DNA of 64,000 nt from Candidatus Phaeomarinobacter ectocarpi (lineage in GTDB: Bacteria; Pseudomonadota; Alphaproteobacteria; CGMCC-115125): NCBI RefSeq assembly GCF_000689395.1, contig NZ_HG966617.1, forward strand, positions 630,753 to 694,752. The letters run 5' to 3'. Both the position numbers and the translations under genes were made by a program. Shown here piece by piece: positions 1 through 42,803 of the stretch (positions are counted from its first letter, which is position 1; the number at the start of each line of letters is the position of its first letter). The notes beneath the pieces are model-generated. The model was not told the DNA's origin, searched no databases, and saw nothing but the letters and a program-made list of their open reading frames with translations.

Positions 1-888
1 AACTACATGCCCAAAGTCGGCAGCCGTGGGCTGGACATGATGTTCCGCACGGCAACAGTGCAGGTAAATCTCGATTTCTCGTCAGAAGCCGACATGGTGC
101 AGATGTACCGCATCTCGCTCGCGCTGCAGCCGATTGTGACGTCGATCTTTGCCAACTCGCCCTTCGTTGATGGCAAGCCCAACGGCGTGCTTTCCAACCG
201 CGCAAACGTCTGGCTCGATACCGACAAGCATCGCACAGGCATGTTGCCGTTCGTCTTCGAGGACGGGTTTGGCTTTGAGCAATATGTCGATTACGCCCTC
301 GATGTGCCGATGTATTTCGTCCATCGCAATGGCACGTATGTCGATGTCTCCGGCCAGTCCTTCCGTGACTTCATGCAGGGCAAGCTCAAGGGCCTTGAGG
401 GTGATCGCCCGTCGATGGACGACTGGGAAAACCACCTGACAACCATTTTTCCCGAAGCCCGCCTCAAGCGGTTCATTGAAATGCGCGGCGCTGACGGTGG
501 CCCCTGGCGGCGTCTGTGTGCGCTACCGGCTTTCTGGGTCGGACTGTTCTACGACAAGGCCTCTCAGGAAGCAGCCTTCGATCTGGTCAAGGACTGGACC
601 GAGGAAGAGCGCGAACAATTGCATCGCGATGTGCCGGTGCACGCACTCAACACCAGGTTCCGCGATCATACGGTGCTGGACATCGCCCGCGATGCATTGG
701 CGATTGCCAAGCAGGGCCTCAAGGCCCGCGCCCGAAGCGACGGCTTTGATGGCGACGAACGTGGCTTCCTGGCAGCCGTTGAAACCACGGTAGATAGCGG
801 CCGCACCCCGGCCGAAGAGATGCTCGATCTCTACAACGGCAAATGGCAGGGCAATCTCGACAATCTCTTTGCCGAGTATTCCTACTAG
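1..888 (+). CDS. gshA: Glutamate-cysteine ligase, C-terminal part (5' truncated by window edge)
   Basis: ATP-dependent ligation of glutamate and cysteine, the first step of glutathione synthesis, in the cytosol. The reading frame is already open at base 1 (Asn-Tyr before the first Met), so the true start lies outside the window; about 295 C-terminal residues are visible. They carry blocks typical of the plant/alphaproteobacterial GshA family: [60 protein letters not shown] and [12 protein letters not shown]. The end of the protein ([13 protein letters not shown]) also fits. The family often reads FRTCTVQ where this protein has FRTATVQ. Transcription is convergent with the next gene, 21 bp downstream. 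Identification is firm; only the N-terminus is missing. Confidence 0.95.
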
Positions 889-909: not shown

Positions 910-1692
910 CTAGTCTTCGAACAGCCCCAGTTCTTCCATCCGGTCGAGGATGGAAATGGGTTTGCTGCTCAGCACTTCGTGGGCTTCGTCGTCCAGCGCG
1001 AAATTGATGGTCTCAAGCGCGTCGTCGCGGGCGACCAGCAGCTGCGCAATATCGTCCCTGAACAATCCAAAAAGATGGCTGAACCACTGGTTGGCCAGGG
1101 GGGCATCAAATGCGTCCGTGCAGGTGAGCCGGTCGAGCAACGGCAGGATGCTTTTGGCTGTCACCATGGCTTCGTCGGTCACCCAGCGATTGGTGGTGAA
1201 CAGCTCAATCGGCAGGCCGGTGGCATCCATGGTGATGGCGATGACGTGAAACAGATCATCGGCTTCCAGCGTCGTGGCGTCTTCATCGGCGGCGGAAATC
1301 GACTTTACGTCGCTCGCTGTATCCCCGGCCTTCAGAAAGATGTGAAAATGGCCGTGCTCATGTCCCGCACGGTGGCCGTGATAATAAATCTGCACACCGC
1401 TCCGGCTGTCGCGGGCGTCCCCCGGCGGGTAGTGCGTCCAGCTTTCAAAGGGAGCATCGTCGTCAAACGTGCCAATGGTCAGGGTGACGGGATTAAGTCC
1501 CTGTTCCGCCATCTGGGCACCGGCATCCACGAGGCCGAAGGCGGCGTCTGCCAACTCATCGGTGAGAGGGGCATCGACGCGCGTGTCACCGGGCGTATCA
1601 AGAATGGGAGCGGCCATGGGAGTGGTCAGGGTCATCAGCGTAAATCGGGATAATGAAAGTGTCCGAGCTGCCTGTGTCAGCAGCCCGGACAT
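910..1692 (-). CDS. Uncharacterised His-rich protein (DUF6969-like)
   Basis: About 260 residues, no signal peptide or membrane segment seen, so probably cytosolic. The middle holds a His-rich stretch: WTHYPPGDARD, then VQIYYHGHRAGHEHGHFHIF, a layout that could bind metal. I associate this pattern with an uncharacterised alphaproteobacterial family (I believe DUF6969), but could not search it. No function is known to me. The start is uncertain: the ATG at 1692 lies 9 bp after the stop of the upstream Cys-rich peptide gene (1702-2001), suggesting coupled translation; in-frame ATGs at 1635 and 1617 are alternatives and none has a strong ribosome site. The tight spacing suggests that the two genes form a unit. 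Confidence 0.6.
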   Translation of the reverse strand: MSGLLTQAARTLSLSRFTLMTLTTPMAAPILDTPGDTRVDAPLTDELADAAFGLVDAGAQMAEQGLNPVTLTIGTFDDDAPFESWTHYPPGDARDSRSGVQIYYHGHRAGHEHGHFHIFLKAGDTASDVKSISAADEDATTLEADDLFHVIAITMDATGLPIELFTTNRWVTDEAMVTAKSILPLLDRLTCTDAFDAPLANQWFSHLFGLFRDDIAQLLVARDDALETINFALDDEAHEVLSSKPISILDRMEELGLFED

Positions 1693-1701
1693 CTCAGTCA
1701 G

Positions 1702-2001
1702 CTACTGTGCTGCACCGCAAGGGCTGCATGGGTTGGCCTTGGCCGCACCGCATGGGCTGCACTTTGCTGCACCACATTTTGCTGCGGCACAGGGGCTGCA
1801 TGGGTTGGCCTTTGCACCAGCACATTTTGCACCAGCACATGGGCTGCAGGCAGATGTGCGCTTGGCACCACAGCCATAGGCACCACAGGCAGCAGACGCG
1901 GGCTGCGCAACAGCAACGGCTGCAGCCATCATGGCAGCAGAACCAAGAACGACAGATGCGCGGGACATACGGCGCGTCTTGGGCGTAGAGGATTTCGACA
2001 T
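1702..2001 (-). CDS. Secreted cysteine-rich repeat peptide (metal-binding or RiPP-precursor-like)
   Basis: Ninety-nine residues starting at ATG 2001, preceded by GAAGGAAAC. An upstream in-frame start at 2121 would add 40 residues without signal-peptide character, so I chose 2001. Residues 1-37 form a Sec signal peptide: basic start (KTRRMSR), hydrophobic core rich in Ala and Val, and cleavage after PASA. The 62-residue mature part is almost only Ala, Cys, Gly, Lys, Pro and Ser, with 12 cysteines in SPC, NPCSPC, AKC and AAKC units; AKANPCSPC occurs once in full and AKANPCSPC again near the end, showing internal duplication. Such peptides are either metal-binding proteins or precursors of Cys-modified exported peptides (bufferin-type, made by DUF692/MNIO enzymes). 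No DUF692 gene is visible here. Function is inferred only from composition. Confidence 0.7.
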   Translation of the reverse strand: MSKSSTPKTRRMSRASVVLGSAAMMAAAVAVAQPASAACGAYGCGAKRTSACSPCAGAKCAGAKANPCSPCAAAKCGAAKCSPCGAAKANPCSPCGAAQ

Positions 2002-2715: not shown

Positions 2716-4140
2716 TTAAGCGGCCGTCCCGCCCACCGTCAGTGCTTCCATGTGCAGTGTTGGCTGGCCGACGCCGACGGGGACGCCCTGACCGGCCTTG
2801 CCGCAGGTGCCGATGCCGGTGTCCAGCTTCATGTCATTGCCGATGGCCTTGATGCGCGTCAGGGCGTCAGCGCCGTTGCCGATAAGAGTCGCACCCTTGA
2901 TCGGCGTCGTCACCTTGCCGTCTTCGATCATGTAAGCCTCGGTGCACGAGAACACGAACTTGCCGTTGGTGATGTCCACCTGACCGCCGCCAAAGTTTGT
3001 GGCGTAGATGCCTTTCTTCACGCCCGCGAGAATTTCGCCCGGGTCGCGATCACCTTCGGTCATGTAGGTGTTGGTCATGCGCGGCATCGGCTGGTGCGCA
3101 AAGCTTTCGCGGCGACCATTGCCGGTTGCCGCCACACCCATGAGGCGCGCATTGAGGCGGTCCTGCATGTAGCCCTTGAGAATGCCGTCTTCGATCAGCA
3201 CCGTGCGCGACGTCGGCGTACCTTCATCGTCCACGGTGAGCGACCCGCGCCGGTCGTCCAGCGTGCCATCGTCGACGACCGTGACGCCGGGAGAGGCCAC
3301 GCGCTCACCCATCAGCCCGGCAAAGGCACTCTGGCCCTTGCGGTTGAAGTCACCTTCAAGGCCATGGCCGATGGCTTCGTGCAGCAGGATGCCCGGCCAG
3401 CCCGGCCCAAGCACCACATCCATTTCACCCGCCGGGGCAGGCACCGCTTCGAGATTCACAAGCGCCTGACGCAGGGCTTCGTCAGCGCCCGCCTGCCAGC
3501 TCTGGGTCTCGATGAAGCGTGTGTAGTTTTCCCGGCCACCGGTGCCGAACGTGCCGGATTCCTGGCGGTCGCCGTCGCCCACCACAACGCTGACATTGAA
3601 ACGCACGAGAGGACGCACATCGCGCACGATCTGTCCGTCGGCACGCAGGATCATCACCGCCTGCCACTCGCCGGAAAGGGACGCAGACACCTGGCGTACG
3701 CGCGAATCCTTGGCACGGGCATAGGCATCGATTTCCTGCAGCAGCTTGACCTTCTCTTCAAAAGATGGGCCGCCCAGCGGATTGTCGTCGCCATACAGAT
3801 GCGCGTTTGTTGCCTGCGGTCCCGCCGCCATGGAGCCTGAGTGACCAGCCTTCACAGCCTGCACCGCATCCGCCGCCCGCTTGACGGCGGCTTCCGACAG
3901 GTCAGACGCATGGGCATAGCCCGTTGCTTCACCGGCCACACAGCGCAGGCCAAAACCCTGGCCCGTATCAAAGCTCGCGGTTTTCAGGCGCCCGTCATCA
4001 AAGGCCAGCGCCTCAGACTGGGTGTATTCCAGAAACAGCTCTCCATCGTCCGCGCCTGTCAGCGTGTCAGAGACGATCCGCGTCAGACGGTCAGGATCAA
4101 GACCGGCGCGGGTGAAGAAGAGTTCATCAGGAGTGGGCAT
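2716..4140 (-). CDS. tldD: Metalloprotease TldD
   Basis: TldD forms a heterodimeric zinc protease with TldE/PmbA; known roles include cleavage of peptide precursors such as microcin B17 and degradation of CcdA. The 474-residue protein has the family zinc motif HEAIGHGLEGD near residue 255, a glycine-rich block RGSLTVDDEGTPTSRTVLIE, and the C-terminal CGKAGQGVPVGVGQPTL. Length matches the family. In many alphaproteobacteria tldD lies divergently beside coxB; here a barstar gene and an unknown gene separate them. The partner gene (tldE/pmbA) is not in the window. Identification is firm. Confidence 0.95.
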   Translation of the reverse strand: MPTPDELFFTRAGLDPDRLTRIVSDTLTGADDGELFLEYTQSEALAFDDGRLKTASFDTGQGFGLRCVAGEATGYAHASDLSEAAVKRAADAVQAVKAGHSGSMAAGPQATNAHLYGDDNPLGGPSFEEKVKLLQEIDAYARAKDSRVRQVSASLSGEWQAVMILRADGQIVRDVRPLVRFNVSVVVGDGDRQESGTFGTGGRENYTRFIETQSWQAGADEALRQALVNLEAVPAPAGEMDVVLGPGWPGILLHEAIGHGLEGDFNRKGQSAFAGLMGERVASPGVTVVDDGTLDDRRGSLTVDDEGTPTSRTVLIEDGILKGYMQDRLNARLMGVAATGNGRRESFAHQPMPRMTNTYMTEGDRDPGEILAGVKKGIYATNFGGGQVDITNGKFVFSCTEAYMIEDGKVTTPIKGATLIGNGADALTRIKAIGNDMKLDTGIGTCGKAGQGVPVGVGQPTLHMEALTVGGTAA

Positions 4141-4197: not shown

Positions 4198-4509
4198 TCA
4201 TTCAAGGATCAATATCACATTACTATGTCGTTCACTGCCAGCGTTCCCGTGTTCAGATATGATTTCAACGATCGTATCGAAGGCGGTCGGCTCGTCATTC
4301 CTCCGCATTTCCGAACGGGACTTGCCTGAACTGGTCCAATGGATTGTGAACCGGTCGTCAGGGGTCCCAAAGCCACCTCGAAGCACGTCATTTAGAGCGT
4401 CAAGGTTTCGACTCCAAGATTCATTTGGAATGATGGTCCGCTCGAACTCGTCATAGAATTCAACTGTTGATCGAATTTTGTGGCCATCCAAAATGTATGT
4501 TCTGGTCAC
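4198..4509 (-). CDS. Barstar-family protein (ribonuclease inhibitor / immunity-like)
   Basis: A 103-residue protein with the barstar layout: an N-terminal strand TYILDGHKIRS, a helix with FYDEFERTI, then the hallmark SWSRNLDALNDVLRGG, followed by FTIHWTSSGKSR. Barstar proteins bind and block barnase-type ribonucleases, and related ones act as immunity proteins. No ribonuclease is recognisable here. It follows the unknown gene at 4527-4973 with a 17 bp gap and precedes tldD on the same strand. GC is near 48 percent by hand count, clearly below the 60 percent or more of its neighbours, which suggests recent transfer. The protein family is well supported; the target is unknown. Confidence 0.85.
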   Translation of the reverse strand: MTRTYILDGHKIRSTVEFYDEFERTIIPNESWSRNLDALNDVLRGGFGTPDDRFTIHWTSSGKSRSEMRRNDEPTAFDTIVEIISEHGNAGSERHSNVILILE

Positions 4510-4526: not shown

Positions 4527-4973
4527 TTAAGGCATATCATCCAGCAGCGCCTGAACATTCGGGTGACGTGATCCCGGATCATTGGCCACAAGATCCTCAA
4601 TGGGGACCAGGCGGCCGGGCATGCCTGACAGGTCACAGGGCACATGCACCTTGGATGTGCGGTACATGGGCCACTGGGTGATCCGCAGCGTTTCGAGGTC
4701 CACCAGGAATACGCCGTTGATGCGGCCAAACCAGTTGTCCCAGTCGCTGAACTTCCAGCTCTGCCACCCCGAAGGTGGCGGCGCGGTGATGTCCGCGACC
4801 GATTGGGGGTGCGCCGCGCAAAAGCCGACAGCTGACCGACCGGGGTCGCGGGGGTCCAGATAGGGCGCTGCCATTTCAATGAGGGCAGGGGCTGAACCGC
4901 CGTCTTCTGCAATGTGAAGCCCCGCGGAAATTTTCCGCCCGTAGTGGAAATGGATGAGTGCCTCGTCGCGCAT
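4527..4973 (-). CDS. Hypothetical protein upstream of barstar
   Basis: A 148-residue soluble protein I do not recognise. I chose ATG 4973 because AGAAAGAG precedes it; a start at 5021 would add 16 basic residues. It has no signal peptide or membrane segment. Visible features are a Trp-rich middle (GWQSWKFSDWDNWFGRING) and a C-terminal segment VHVPCDLSGMPGRLVP. Composition is close to the chromosome average, unlike the following barstar gene. The 17 bp gap to barstar implies co-transcription, so it may be the partner of that inhibitor, but no catalytic motif of a barnase-like RNase is visible. That link is only a guess from position. Confidence 0.55.
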   Translation of the reverse strand: MRDEALIHFHYGRKISAGLHIAEDGGSAPALIEMAAPYLDPRDPGRSAVGFCAAHPQSVADITAPPPSGWQSWKFSDWDNWFGRINGVFLVDLETLRITQWPMYRTSKVHVPCDLSGMPGRLVPIEDLVANDPGSRHPNVQALLDDMP

Positions 4974-5436
4974 GCCGTCGCTCTTTCTGGTTGGCGTTCG
5001 CTTGCTGCGAATGCTTTGCATTTATACCCGACTAGACCTAGGGCACCAACGCCGCGGCACCAGTGCCAGCGTGCAAAAGGCCTAACATGCTGTTGTCACA
5101 GGCAAATCCGGCGCGCATTTGCTGCTCGGTTTGCGGGCAATCCGGCGGGCGGGAAAACCCCGCATTCAAGCCAAAAACGATACCGCGCGCCTATTTTGGG
5201 TCAAAGTGTCGCAAAAAGAAGCCGCGTACTCGCTACGTGCGCAAGCCACGCTATACTTATCGCTAGCCTACAGGGGTGGGATTCGCCTGTCGTTTGGTGC
5301 GCAAGGTTTCGTTTGCGTTACCGGCGCGACGTGCTAATCGTCCGCTCCTGCACGAAATGACCCTGTGTTTCCACGGGTCCTGCATCAAGAATTACGACCC
5401 GGATTATCACTGGGATTACGACTGGGGATGTCGAGC
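4974..5436. other. Intergenic region between the barstar islet and coxB
   Basis: About 460 bp between two divergent transcription units, so it should hold promoters in both directions. I see no supported gene; short open frames here lack ribosome sites and protein character. The last 80 bp hold a hairpin at 5359-5379: GACCC then GTG, paired with CAC then GGGTC around a TTTC loop, with one bulged T. Candidate promoter elements cannot be assigned with confidence. Confidence 0.5.
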
Positions 5437-41253: not shown

Positions 41254-41871
41254 AACATCTAGCGCCATGCGGGCGCGAACCGGGGCAAAACTTTTTCTGT
41301 GAAGCGGGGTTATCCCCAGCTTGTTAAGCGCTGTTTGGTGGGCCGCGGTGCCATATCCCTTGTGGCGGGCAAAGCCGTATCCCGGATATTCCGCATCCGC
41401 CGCCACCATTATGGCGTCCCGATAGGTCTTGGCGATGATTGATGCAGCAGCAACGGAGAGCGACCGACCGTCTCCCTTGATCACCGCCTGAGCAGGGCAG
41501 CCAACGTCCGGTGCATCGCGCCCGTCAATCAGCGCGAAGGAAGGTGGGGACGGGAGGTCGGCAACCGCCCGCGCCATGGCCAGAAACGTGGCCTGGCGAA
41601 TGTTCAGCTCATCAATTTCCTGCGGATCCGCAATGCCCACTCCCACGAGGGATGAAGCGCGTATGTGGCCAGCAAGGTCATTGCGTCTTTGAGCAGTGAG
41701 TTTCTTTGAGTCATTCAATCCCTCCGGAACACCAGATGTGGGAAGGATGACGGCAGATGCAACCACCGGCCCCGCCCATGGACCACGCCCTGCTTCGTCA
41801 ATGCCGCACACCGGAGAAATGCCGCACGCGGCTTCAAGGGAGAAATCGGGTCCCGGGGTGCTCTTACTCAT
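41242..41871 (-). CDS. rnhB: Ribonuclease HII
   Basis: Removes single ribonucleotides from DNA. With ATG 41871 it has 209 residues; this start overlaps the stop of the upstream FGE-like gene by 8 bases. Active-site blocks are VCGIDEAGRGPWAGPVVASA near the start, FALIDGRDAP and SVAAASIIAKTYRDAIM, with the DEAGRGPWAGP signature intact. A longer start at 41946 adds unlike residues. It lies just upstream of ccrM on the same strand. Confidence 0.95.
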
Positions 41872-42736
41872 GAGGCAATTCCCGCACCACCCGGAAGCCG
41901 ACGATGGATTGTCGTGCGTGCGGCGGCAGATTGTAACGGGTCCCAAGCCTCACGGGTCCCGGCGGGTCGGTCCACGAATGGCCGCGCAGGGCATAGGTCT
42001 CGCAGTTCTCGTGGGTTTGAGCCGTGCCATCCATCGGCAAATCCGCGTAGCCACCATTGTGGCAGTCAGCGACCCACTCCCATACATTGCCGATCATGTC
42101 GAAAAGACCAAACTCGTTCGCTGCGAAACTGGCCACCGGCGAGGTGTGCAAAAAGCCGTCGTCACAATGCTCCGCGACTTTCGCGACTTTGTTCTTGGCT
42201 GTCAGGTCATTGACATTGCCATGAGCGCACAAAGCTTCAGATGGTCGGTCGAGAGCTGACGGGCCCGCTGCGCGAACCCACTCAGCCTCTGTCGGCAAAC
42301 GATGGACCTGCCCGGTCATTGTGGACAGCCACGCAAGATAAGCCATGGCGTCGTCCCGTGACACGCATGTCACCGGATGTTGGTCCGATTGGGCAAACCC
42401 CGGCGCTTGCCAGTTGGCTGTGCCGTCCATGGCCCAGCCATCAGGCGTCAGGGTCCAGCAGCCCCAGGCGATTTCGTGGTTCGTGGCATGCACGAAGGCT
42501 GCGAACTGCCCGCGCGTCACCGGCGTTGTGCCAAAGGCAATGTCCGATTTGATAACAACCTGGCGCGTGGGGACCTCATCGCGGCCTGCCGCCACATCCT
42601 GATTATCCGCACCCATGACCACAGGGCCCGCCGGCACAATCTGAGTTGTCGGCCAGTCATCGCCAGTGCCGGAGGCAAATGCACTCCATCCGGACAGGAG
42701 CAAAATCAGCGTGGAAAATATCAGACGGCAAATCAT
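41864..42736 (-). CDS. Secreted FGE/SUMF1-domain protein without the catalytic Cys pair
   Basis: A 290-residue exported protein with a signal peptide (ICRLIFSTLILLLSGWSAFA). The body has the formylglycine-generating enzyme (SUMF1) fold: TPVTRGQFAAFV, RLPTEAEWVRAA, NEFGLFDMIGNVWEWVADC and the C-terminal IVGFRVVRE. True sulfatase-activating enzymes have a Cys pair in the RGGSW-to-GFR region, but here that segment (YALRGHSWTDPPGPVRLGTR and following) contains none. So it probably does not make formylglycine, and may act on another target or be structural. ATG 42736 fits the signal peptide; GTG 42745 and GTG 42742 are alternatives. Confidence 0.85.
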   Translation of the reverse strand: MICRLIFSTLILLLSGWSAFASGTGDDWPTTQIVPAGPVVMGADNQDVAAGRDEVPTRQVVIKSDIAFGTTPVTRGQFAAFVHATNHEIAWGCWTLTPDGWAMDGTANWQAPGFAQSDQHPVTCVSRDDAMAYLAWLSTMTGQVHRLPTEAEWVRAAGPSALDRPSEALCAHGNVNDLTAKNKVAKVAEHCDDGFLHTSPVASFAANEFGLFDMIGNVWEWVADCHNGGYADLPMDGTAQTHENCETYALRGHSWTDPPGPVRLGTRYNLPPHARQSIVGFRVVRELPHE

Positions 42737-42803
42737 AGGCACCACAAAGCCTGCGGAAGCGGCCCCGTGTCAAACCACCTGTCAAACCACGACGGGACGG
42801 TAC

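Follow-up and report, generated by a model that had tools for sequence, protein, structure and literature searches.

A cysteine-repeat exported peptide and its DUF6969 neighbour: a conserved gene pair outside the bufferin clusters in Candidatus Phaeomarinobacter ectocarpi

The stretch of 64,000 nucleotides of the Candidatus Phaeomarinobacter ectocarpi genome analyzed here (the window) carries a gene for a small, Cys-rich exported peptide that is followed on the same strand by a gene left uncharacterised in the initial annotation. This arrangement raises the question of whether the two genes belong together and, if so, whether the second one takes the place that MNIO (DUF692) enzymes hold beside the Cys-containing precursors of bufferins.

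The peptide gene, the DUF6969 gene and the hairpin between them

The peptide, which reads MSKSSTPKTRRMSRASVVLGSAAMMAAAVAVAQPASA followed by ACGAYGCGAKRTSACSPCAGAKCAGAKANPCSPCAAAKCGAAKCSPCGAAKANPCSPCGAAQ, starts with basic residues that lead through a hydrophobic stretch to ASA, i.e., a Sec-type signal as judged by rule and by eye, in agreement with the clean Sec signal described initially. The 62 residues after ASA contain 12 Cys and include six [SN]PC and three AKC units, and the composition count bears out the earlier description in this respect as well. No Pfam or NCBIfam model matched the peptide. In the six-frame open stretches of the GC-rich window, at least 12 Cys are reached by 55 of 40,845 overlapping 62-residue segments; such open frames are not rare here, and the Cys count by itself is weak evidence for a peptide gene. 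The coding case therefore depends on conservation: the reading frame is preserved in two congeneric species, with in-frame gains and losses of repeat units and with changes mostly at third positions.

The product of the second gene is a member of DUF6969 (E = 2.8e-51; cut-off, 27 bits; profile positions 6 to 201 of 201) and has no obvious signal peptide. DUF6969 has no known function, and the window protein keeps the invariant residues of the family. The tight His cluster noted at the outset in this protein is a conserved feature of DUF6969 and not mere composition, since His86, His88, His96, His98, and His130 (numbering from position 1635) are invariant across 36 homologues. The structure was predicted twice (pLDDT of 85 and 92, pTM of 0.84 and 0.90). 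Foldseek searches with the predicted structures returned no match below an E value of 0.1 (PDB twice, viral models once), and the DUF6969 profile gave one chance-level match only against PDB sequences; in the Pfam, PDB-sequence, and Foldseek comparisons, the family resembles no known enzyme by sequence or predicted fold. A literature search on DUF6969 found no paper naming the family.

The spacing of 9 bp given initially for the two genes rests on the first ATG of the open frame, at position 1692, and is probably wrong. The window positions that match the DUF6969 start of the relatives are 1635 and 1617, one of which is probably the start of the gene. In one congener, no in-frame start exists upstream of the corresponding MSMAAP sequence; thus, from the starts in three congeneric species, the gap is likely 66 to 84 nt. 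The terminator-like hairpin in this region has folding z-scores of -4.9 in the window and of -5.1 and -6.5 in two relatives. Its stem is retained despite base changes in two relatives, and a T-rich run follows the hairpin in three species. A terminator scan flags the hairpin, yet shuffled sequence also yields about one site per shuffle. The hairpin may act as a leaky terminator or as a processing signal.

Table 1. Coordinates of the gene pair, of other genes in the window, and of the bufferin-1 cluster in the same genome
Feature	Position	Strand	Basis
DUF6969 gene	910..1635 (open frame to 1692)	-	PF22308, 174.4 bits; probable start, from relatives
Fifth invariant His of DUF6969, His130	1246..1248	-	Alignments of 36 and 28 homologues
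YYHGHRAGHEHGHFH motif in DUF6969, HxH and GHFH invariant in the family	1342..1386	-	Alignments of 36 and 28 homologues
Terminator-like hairpin, 13-bp stem, then CTTTCATT	1660..1691	-	Folding z = -4.9, terminator scan, conservation
Cys-rich exported peptide, 99 aa, 12 Cys	1702..2001	-	ORF, composition, conservation in two congeneric species
Mature Cys-rich part, 62 residues, SPC/NPC/AKC units	1705..1890	-	Composition
Predicted Sec signal region, residues 1 to 37, ending ASA	1891..2001	-	Rule and eye
Glutamate-cysteine ligase, C-terminal part, cut by the window edge	1..888	+	
TldD/PmbA metallopeptidase	2716..4140	-	
Barstar-family gene	4198..4509	-	PF01337, E = 5.2e-12
164-aa ORF	4527..5021	-	No Pfam or NCBIfam match
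Secreted SUMF1/FGE-like gene	41864..42745	-	PF03781
Complete bufferin-1 cluster, same genome (DUF2282, MNIO BufB, DUF2063, DoxX)	L070 6693-9282		

Distribution of the repeats, DUF6969, and MNIO

A sample of 190 genomes of alphaproteobacteria, in which most families have a single genome, was searched with two strict DNA patterns, [N/S]PC[N/S]PC[A/G]A and [N/S]PC[A/G]AK[N/S]PC, which together match 20 genomes, with zero matches for the reversed control patterns. A loose pattern, PC-x4-PC-x4-PC, was dropped as too noisy in GC-rich genomes, and a tblastn-style scan of genome contigs gave one relative only. DUF6969 is present in 39 of the 190 genomes, i.e., in 19/20 genomes with [N/S]PC repeats versus 20/170 others (Fisher p = 1.9e-14, uncorrected for phylogeny). 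The sole repeat genome without DUF6969 (G124) has its repeat proteins on a contig of 4,229 bp that stops at a SUMF1-like gene; eight other loci have such a gene immediately ahead of DUF6969, and the contig ends where DUF6969 would be expected. Where both are present, at least one repeat locus lies no more than about 8 kb from DUF6969 in 16 of the 19 genomes. In the other three (G028, G082, and G126), the repeat peptides are all unlinked and DUF6969 is nevertheless present, which fits a single partner serving several peptides. The pairing of the Cys-repeat peptide with DUF6969 is strongly supported by these data; the gene pair proposed in the initial annotation is upheld by co-occurrence and by linkage across families, and homologues of the peptide have a consistent neighbour.

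Chance or shared ancestry as the only source of the pairing is already strongly disfavoured, and we give this explanation the least credence of those considered. It draws on the abundance of Cys-rich frames in GC-rich DNA and on the lack of a phylogenetic correction in the Fisher test; however, the contrast in DUF6969 frequency was obtained over mostly different families, a sampling that limits the kinship problem, and pairs also occur in Burkholderia, Skermanella, Sinorhizobium, and a second, phylum-wide sample. Of 16 further genomes with DUF6969 in that separate sample, 9 encode a Cys-rich protein near it, in most cases right beside DUF6969. A CGAKC peptide is directly upstream of DUF6969 on a Burkholderia glumae plasmid, an NPCAAK peptide is directly downstream on a Skermanella mucosa plasmid, and an APCAAG peptide is directly upstream on a Sinorhizobium meliloti Rm41 plasmid, on which DUF6969 is split over two frames in the record. 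Three species of the window's genus carry the peptide together with DUF6969, whereas one complete congeneric genome lacks both and retains the flanking gshA (glutamate-cysteine ligase) and tldD genes.

Reading of the flanks of further DUF6969 genes revealed Cys-rich proteins with GACGAC, CSGC, CAAGC, and CGAKC repeats. With these types counted, a Cys-rich neighbour within 8 kb is found in 23/39 DUF6969 genomes (in one of them without an evident signal) and a Cys-rich protein anywhere in the genome in 26/39. The patterns and flank scans used gave no such protein in 13/39, so either some were missed or DUF6969 also has further partners. The repeats vary by lineage, and no single modification motif is evident. 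On the B. glumae plasmid, genes annotated for arsenosugar biosynthesis come after the pair (L168 4064-8595). At four loci (L206 and L213 to L215), unlinked repeat peptides lie upstream of a histidine-kinase-like gene, and at the latter three they also adjoin pyridine nucleotide-disulphide oxidoreductase-like and VTT-like genes, families that were confirmed for L213.

The window genome has a single MNIO gene (PF05114), about 1.89 Mb from the peptide, which confirms that no DUF692 enzyme is next to it, as first noted. This MNIO exceeds the BufB cut-off and is clustered with a DUF2282 precursor, DUF2063, and DoxX. None of MNIO, DUF2063, and DoxX adjoins the peptide, the neighbours of which are DUF6969, a P-loop kinase-like gene, TldD, and glutamate-cysteine ligase, and the peptide matched none of the DUF2282, BufA2, and HvfA models. 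Among the 190 genomes, 74 have MNIO, with no association with the repeats (8/20 against 66/170, p = 1.0) or with DUF6969 (18/39 against 56/151, p = 0.36); the repeats thus track DUF6969 and not MNIO. Because the MNIO of this genome sits in its own complete bufferin cluster and MNIO genes across the 190 genomes show no association with the repeats, the peptide is outside any bufferin cluster. MNIO was rejected as the partner of the peptide on genome context and statistics. That the distant bufferin MNIO modifies the peptide in trans is very improbable: one MNIO does exist, but a DUF2282 precursor, DUF2063, and DoxX of its own accompany it, and 12 of the 20 repeat genomes have no MNIO.

The initial annotation had proposed a metal-handling or peptide-modifying system distinct from those of DUF692. 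The distinctness is well supported and now extends to independence of MNIO across genomes, whereas the role proposed for the pair stays conditional; of the combination that had been listed as speaking against the proposal, namely a separate DUF692 gene that has a precursor of its own together with an unmodified mass of this peptide, the first half is present in the genome. As in the bufferin/MNIO systems (PMC12452194), a Cys-containing precursor with a Sec signal lies beside its partner gene, and several precursors per genome are possible; unlike in those systems, the partner is DUF6969, for which no relation to known folds was detected. The pair would work like a bufferin-type system, yet without MNIO, a precursor of the bufferin family, DUF2063, or DoxX.

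Fusions to cytochromes and SUMF1/FGE-like neighbours

In many loci, the repeats form the N-terminal part of a cytochrome P460 protein (PF16694, E = 3.6e-9 and 1.9e-8; confirmed by score in two of the long repeat-P460-like proteins scanned), and outside the alphaproteobacterial sample they are joined to cytochrome c domains of the SoxA/TsdA type. Long proteins in which NPC or GAC repeats with dozens of Cys are joined to a cytochrome P460-like domain were seen at eight loci. Cytochrome P460 is a haem protein known from nitrogen-oxide chemistry, and its fusion to the repeats is a new setting for it; literature searches on the repeat motif and on cytochrome P460 with Cys-rich proteins found nothing.

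In eight related loci, the gene immediately upstream of DUF6969 encodes a secreted SUMF1/FGE-like protein (PF03781, E = 4.3e-45), whereas in the window no such gene is adjacent. The secreted member found elsewhere in the window (Table 1) is approximately 30 percent identical to the DUF6969-linked ones. For bufferins, fusions with Cytochrom_C and FGE-sulfatase domains have been reported, and formylglycine-generating enzymes are cuproenzymes according to the same authors (PMC12452194). The fusion of the present repeats to cytochrome c and the FGE-like gene next door in relatives are similar in this respect, and by analogy a function related to copper, or one of a similar kind, may be supposed.

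These fusions, together with small cytochrome c genes near DUF6969, also bear on an explanation in which DUF6969 and the SUMF1-like gene mature cytochrome P460 or cytochrome c proteins, which the Cys repeats merely happen to extend. We consider this improbable: many loci contain free repeat peptides only, and a scan of the window genome for PF16694 gave no match, although the controls of that scan gave none either.

Proposed action of DUF6969 on the peptide

We propose a small two-gene system, with DUF6969 as the cytosolic partner dedicated to the exported Cys-repeat peptide. We attach about an even chance to the proposition that, ahead of export, this partner either matures the peptide or supplies it with metal. 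The peptide would be synthesized with its Sec signal, and DUF6969 would recognize the precursor before export and act on it via the predicted metal site formed by the invariant histidines. The action would most likely be a modification of the Cys repeats (maturation) or else the loading of metal onto them, after which the peptide would reach the periplasm, where its thiols could bind copper or another soft metal. In the fused versions, the repeats would remain attached to the cytochrome P460 or cytochrome c domains. With the hairpin on the 3' side of its gene, the peptide would be produced in larger amounts than DUF6969. Maturation appears preferable to simple metal loading because the co-inheritance is strict and the layout resembles that of precursor-maturase pairs; on the other hand, the invariant histidines may bind metal without catalysis.

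The latter point, together with the absence of an enzyme family match for DUF6969, leads to the main alternative, less likely than the preferred reading, in which the peptide is an unmodified, exported metal binder of the metallothionein type. DUF6969 would then bind metal as a chaperone, sensor, or insertase and would assist the peptide or its synthesis with no covalent change. Cys-rich peptides bind soft metals in general, which counts for this explanation, as does the occurrence of some unlinked repeat peptides beside the oxidoreductase and VTT-domain genes. Nothing decisive stands against it, but such strict co-inheritance with the repeat proteins is more than a chaperone alone would require. 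A high Cys content is typical of metallothioneins and copper storage proteins. The peptide resembles them in being Cys-rich and a probable binder of soft metal, and differs from them in its export, (N/S)PC-type repeats, dedicated partner gene, and lack of a Pfam match.

With regard to the preferred maturation by DUF6969, the family is a strong candidate partner of a new type, one that processes peptides or handles metal. Such a role would give a widespread Pfam family of unknown function a testable activity and would provide Cys-rich exported peptides with a dedicated partner other than MNIO, so that the bufferin-type strategy would reach genomes without MNIO. The predicted fold has no solved counterpart, and DUF6969, if an enzyme, would represent a new class. 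More tentatively, this class may consist of metal-dependent peptide-modifying enzymes with a previously unseen fold, which would act on the Cys repeats of Sec-exported peptides and of cytochrome-fused domains and thereby form a second route, unrelated to MNIO, to periplasmic thiol metallophores.

Other genes lie near the pair in the window (Table 1). The truncated glutamate-cysteine ligase gene is a thiol-related neighbour, and the Barstar-family gene and the 164-aa ORF lie on the minus strand beyond the TldD/PmbA metallopeptidase gene. TldD/E proteins process some RiPPs; the TldD of the window is probably a housekeeping protein because the congener that lacks the pair has this gene at the same place.
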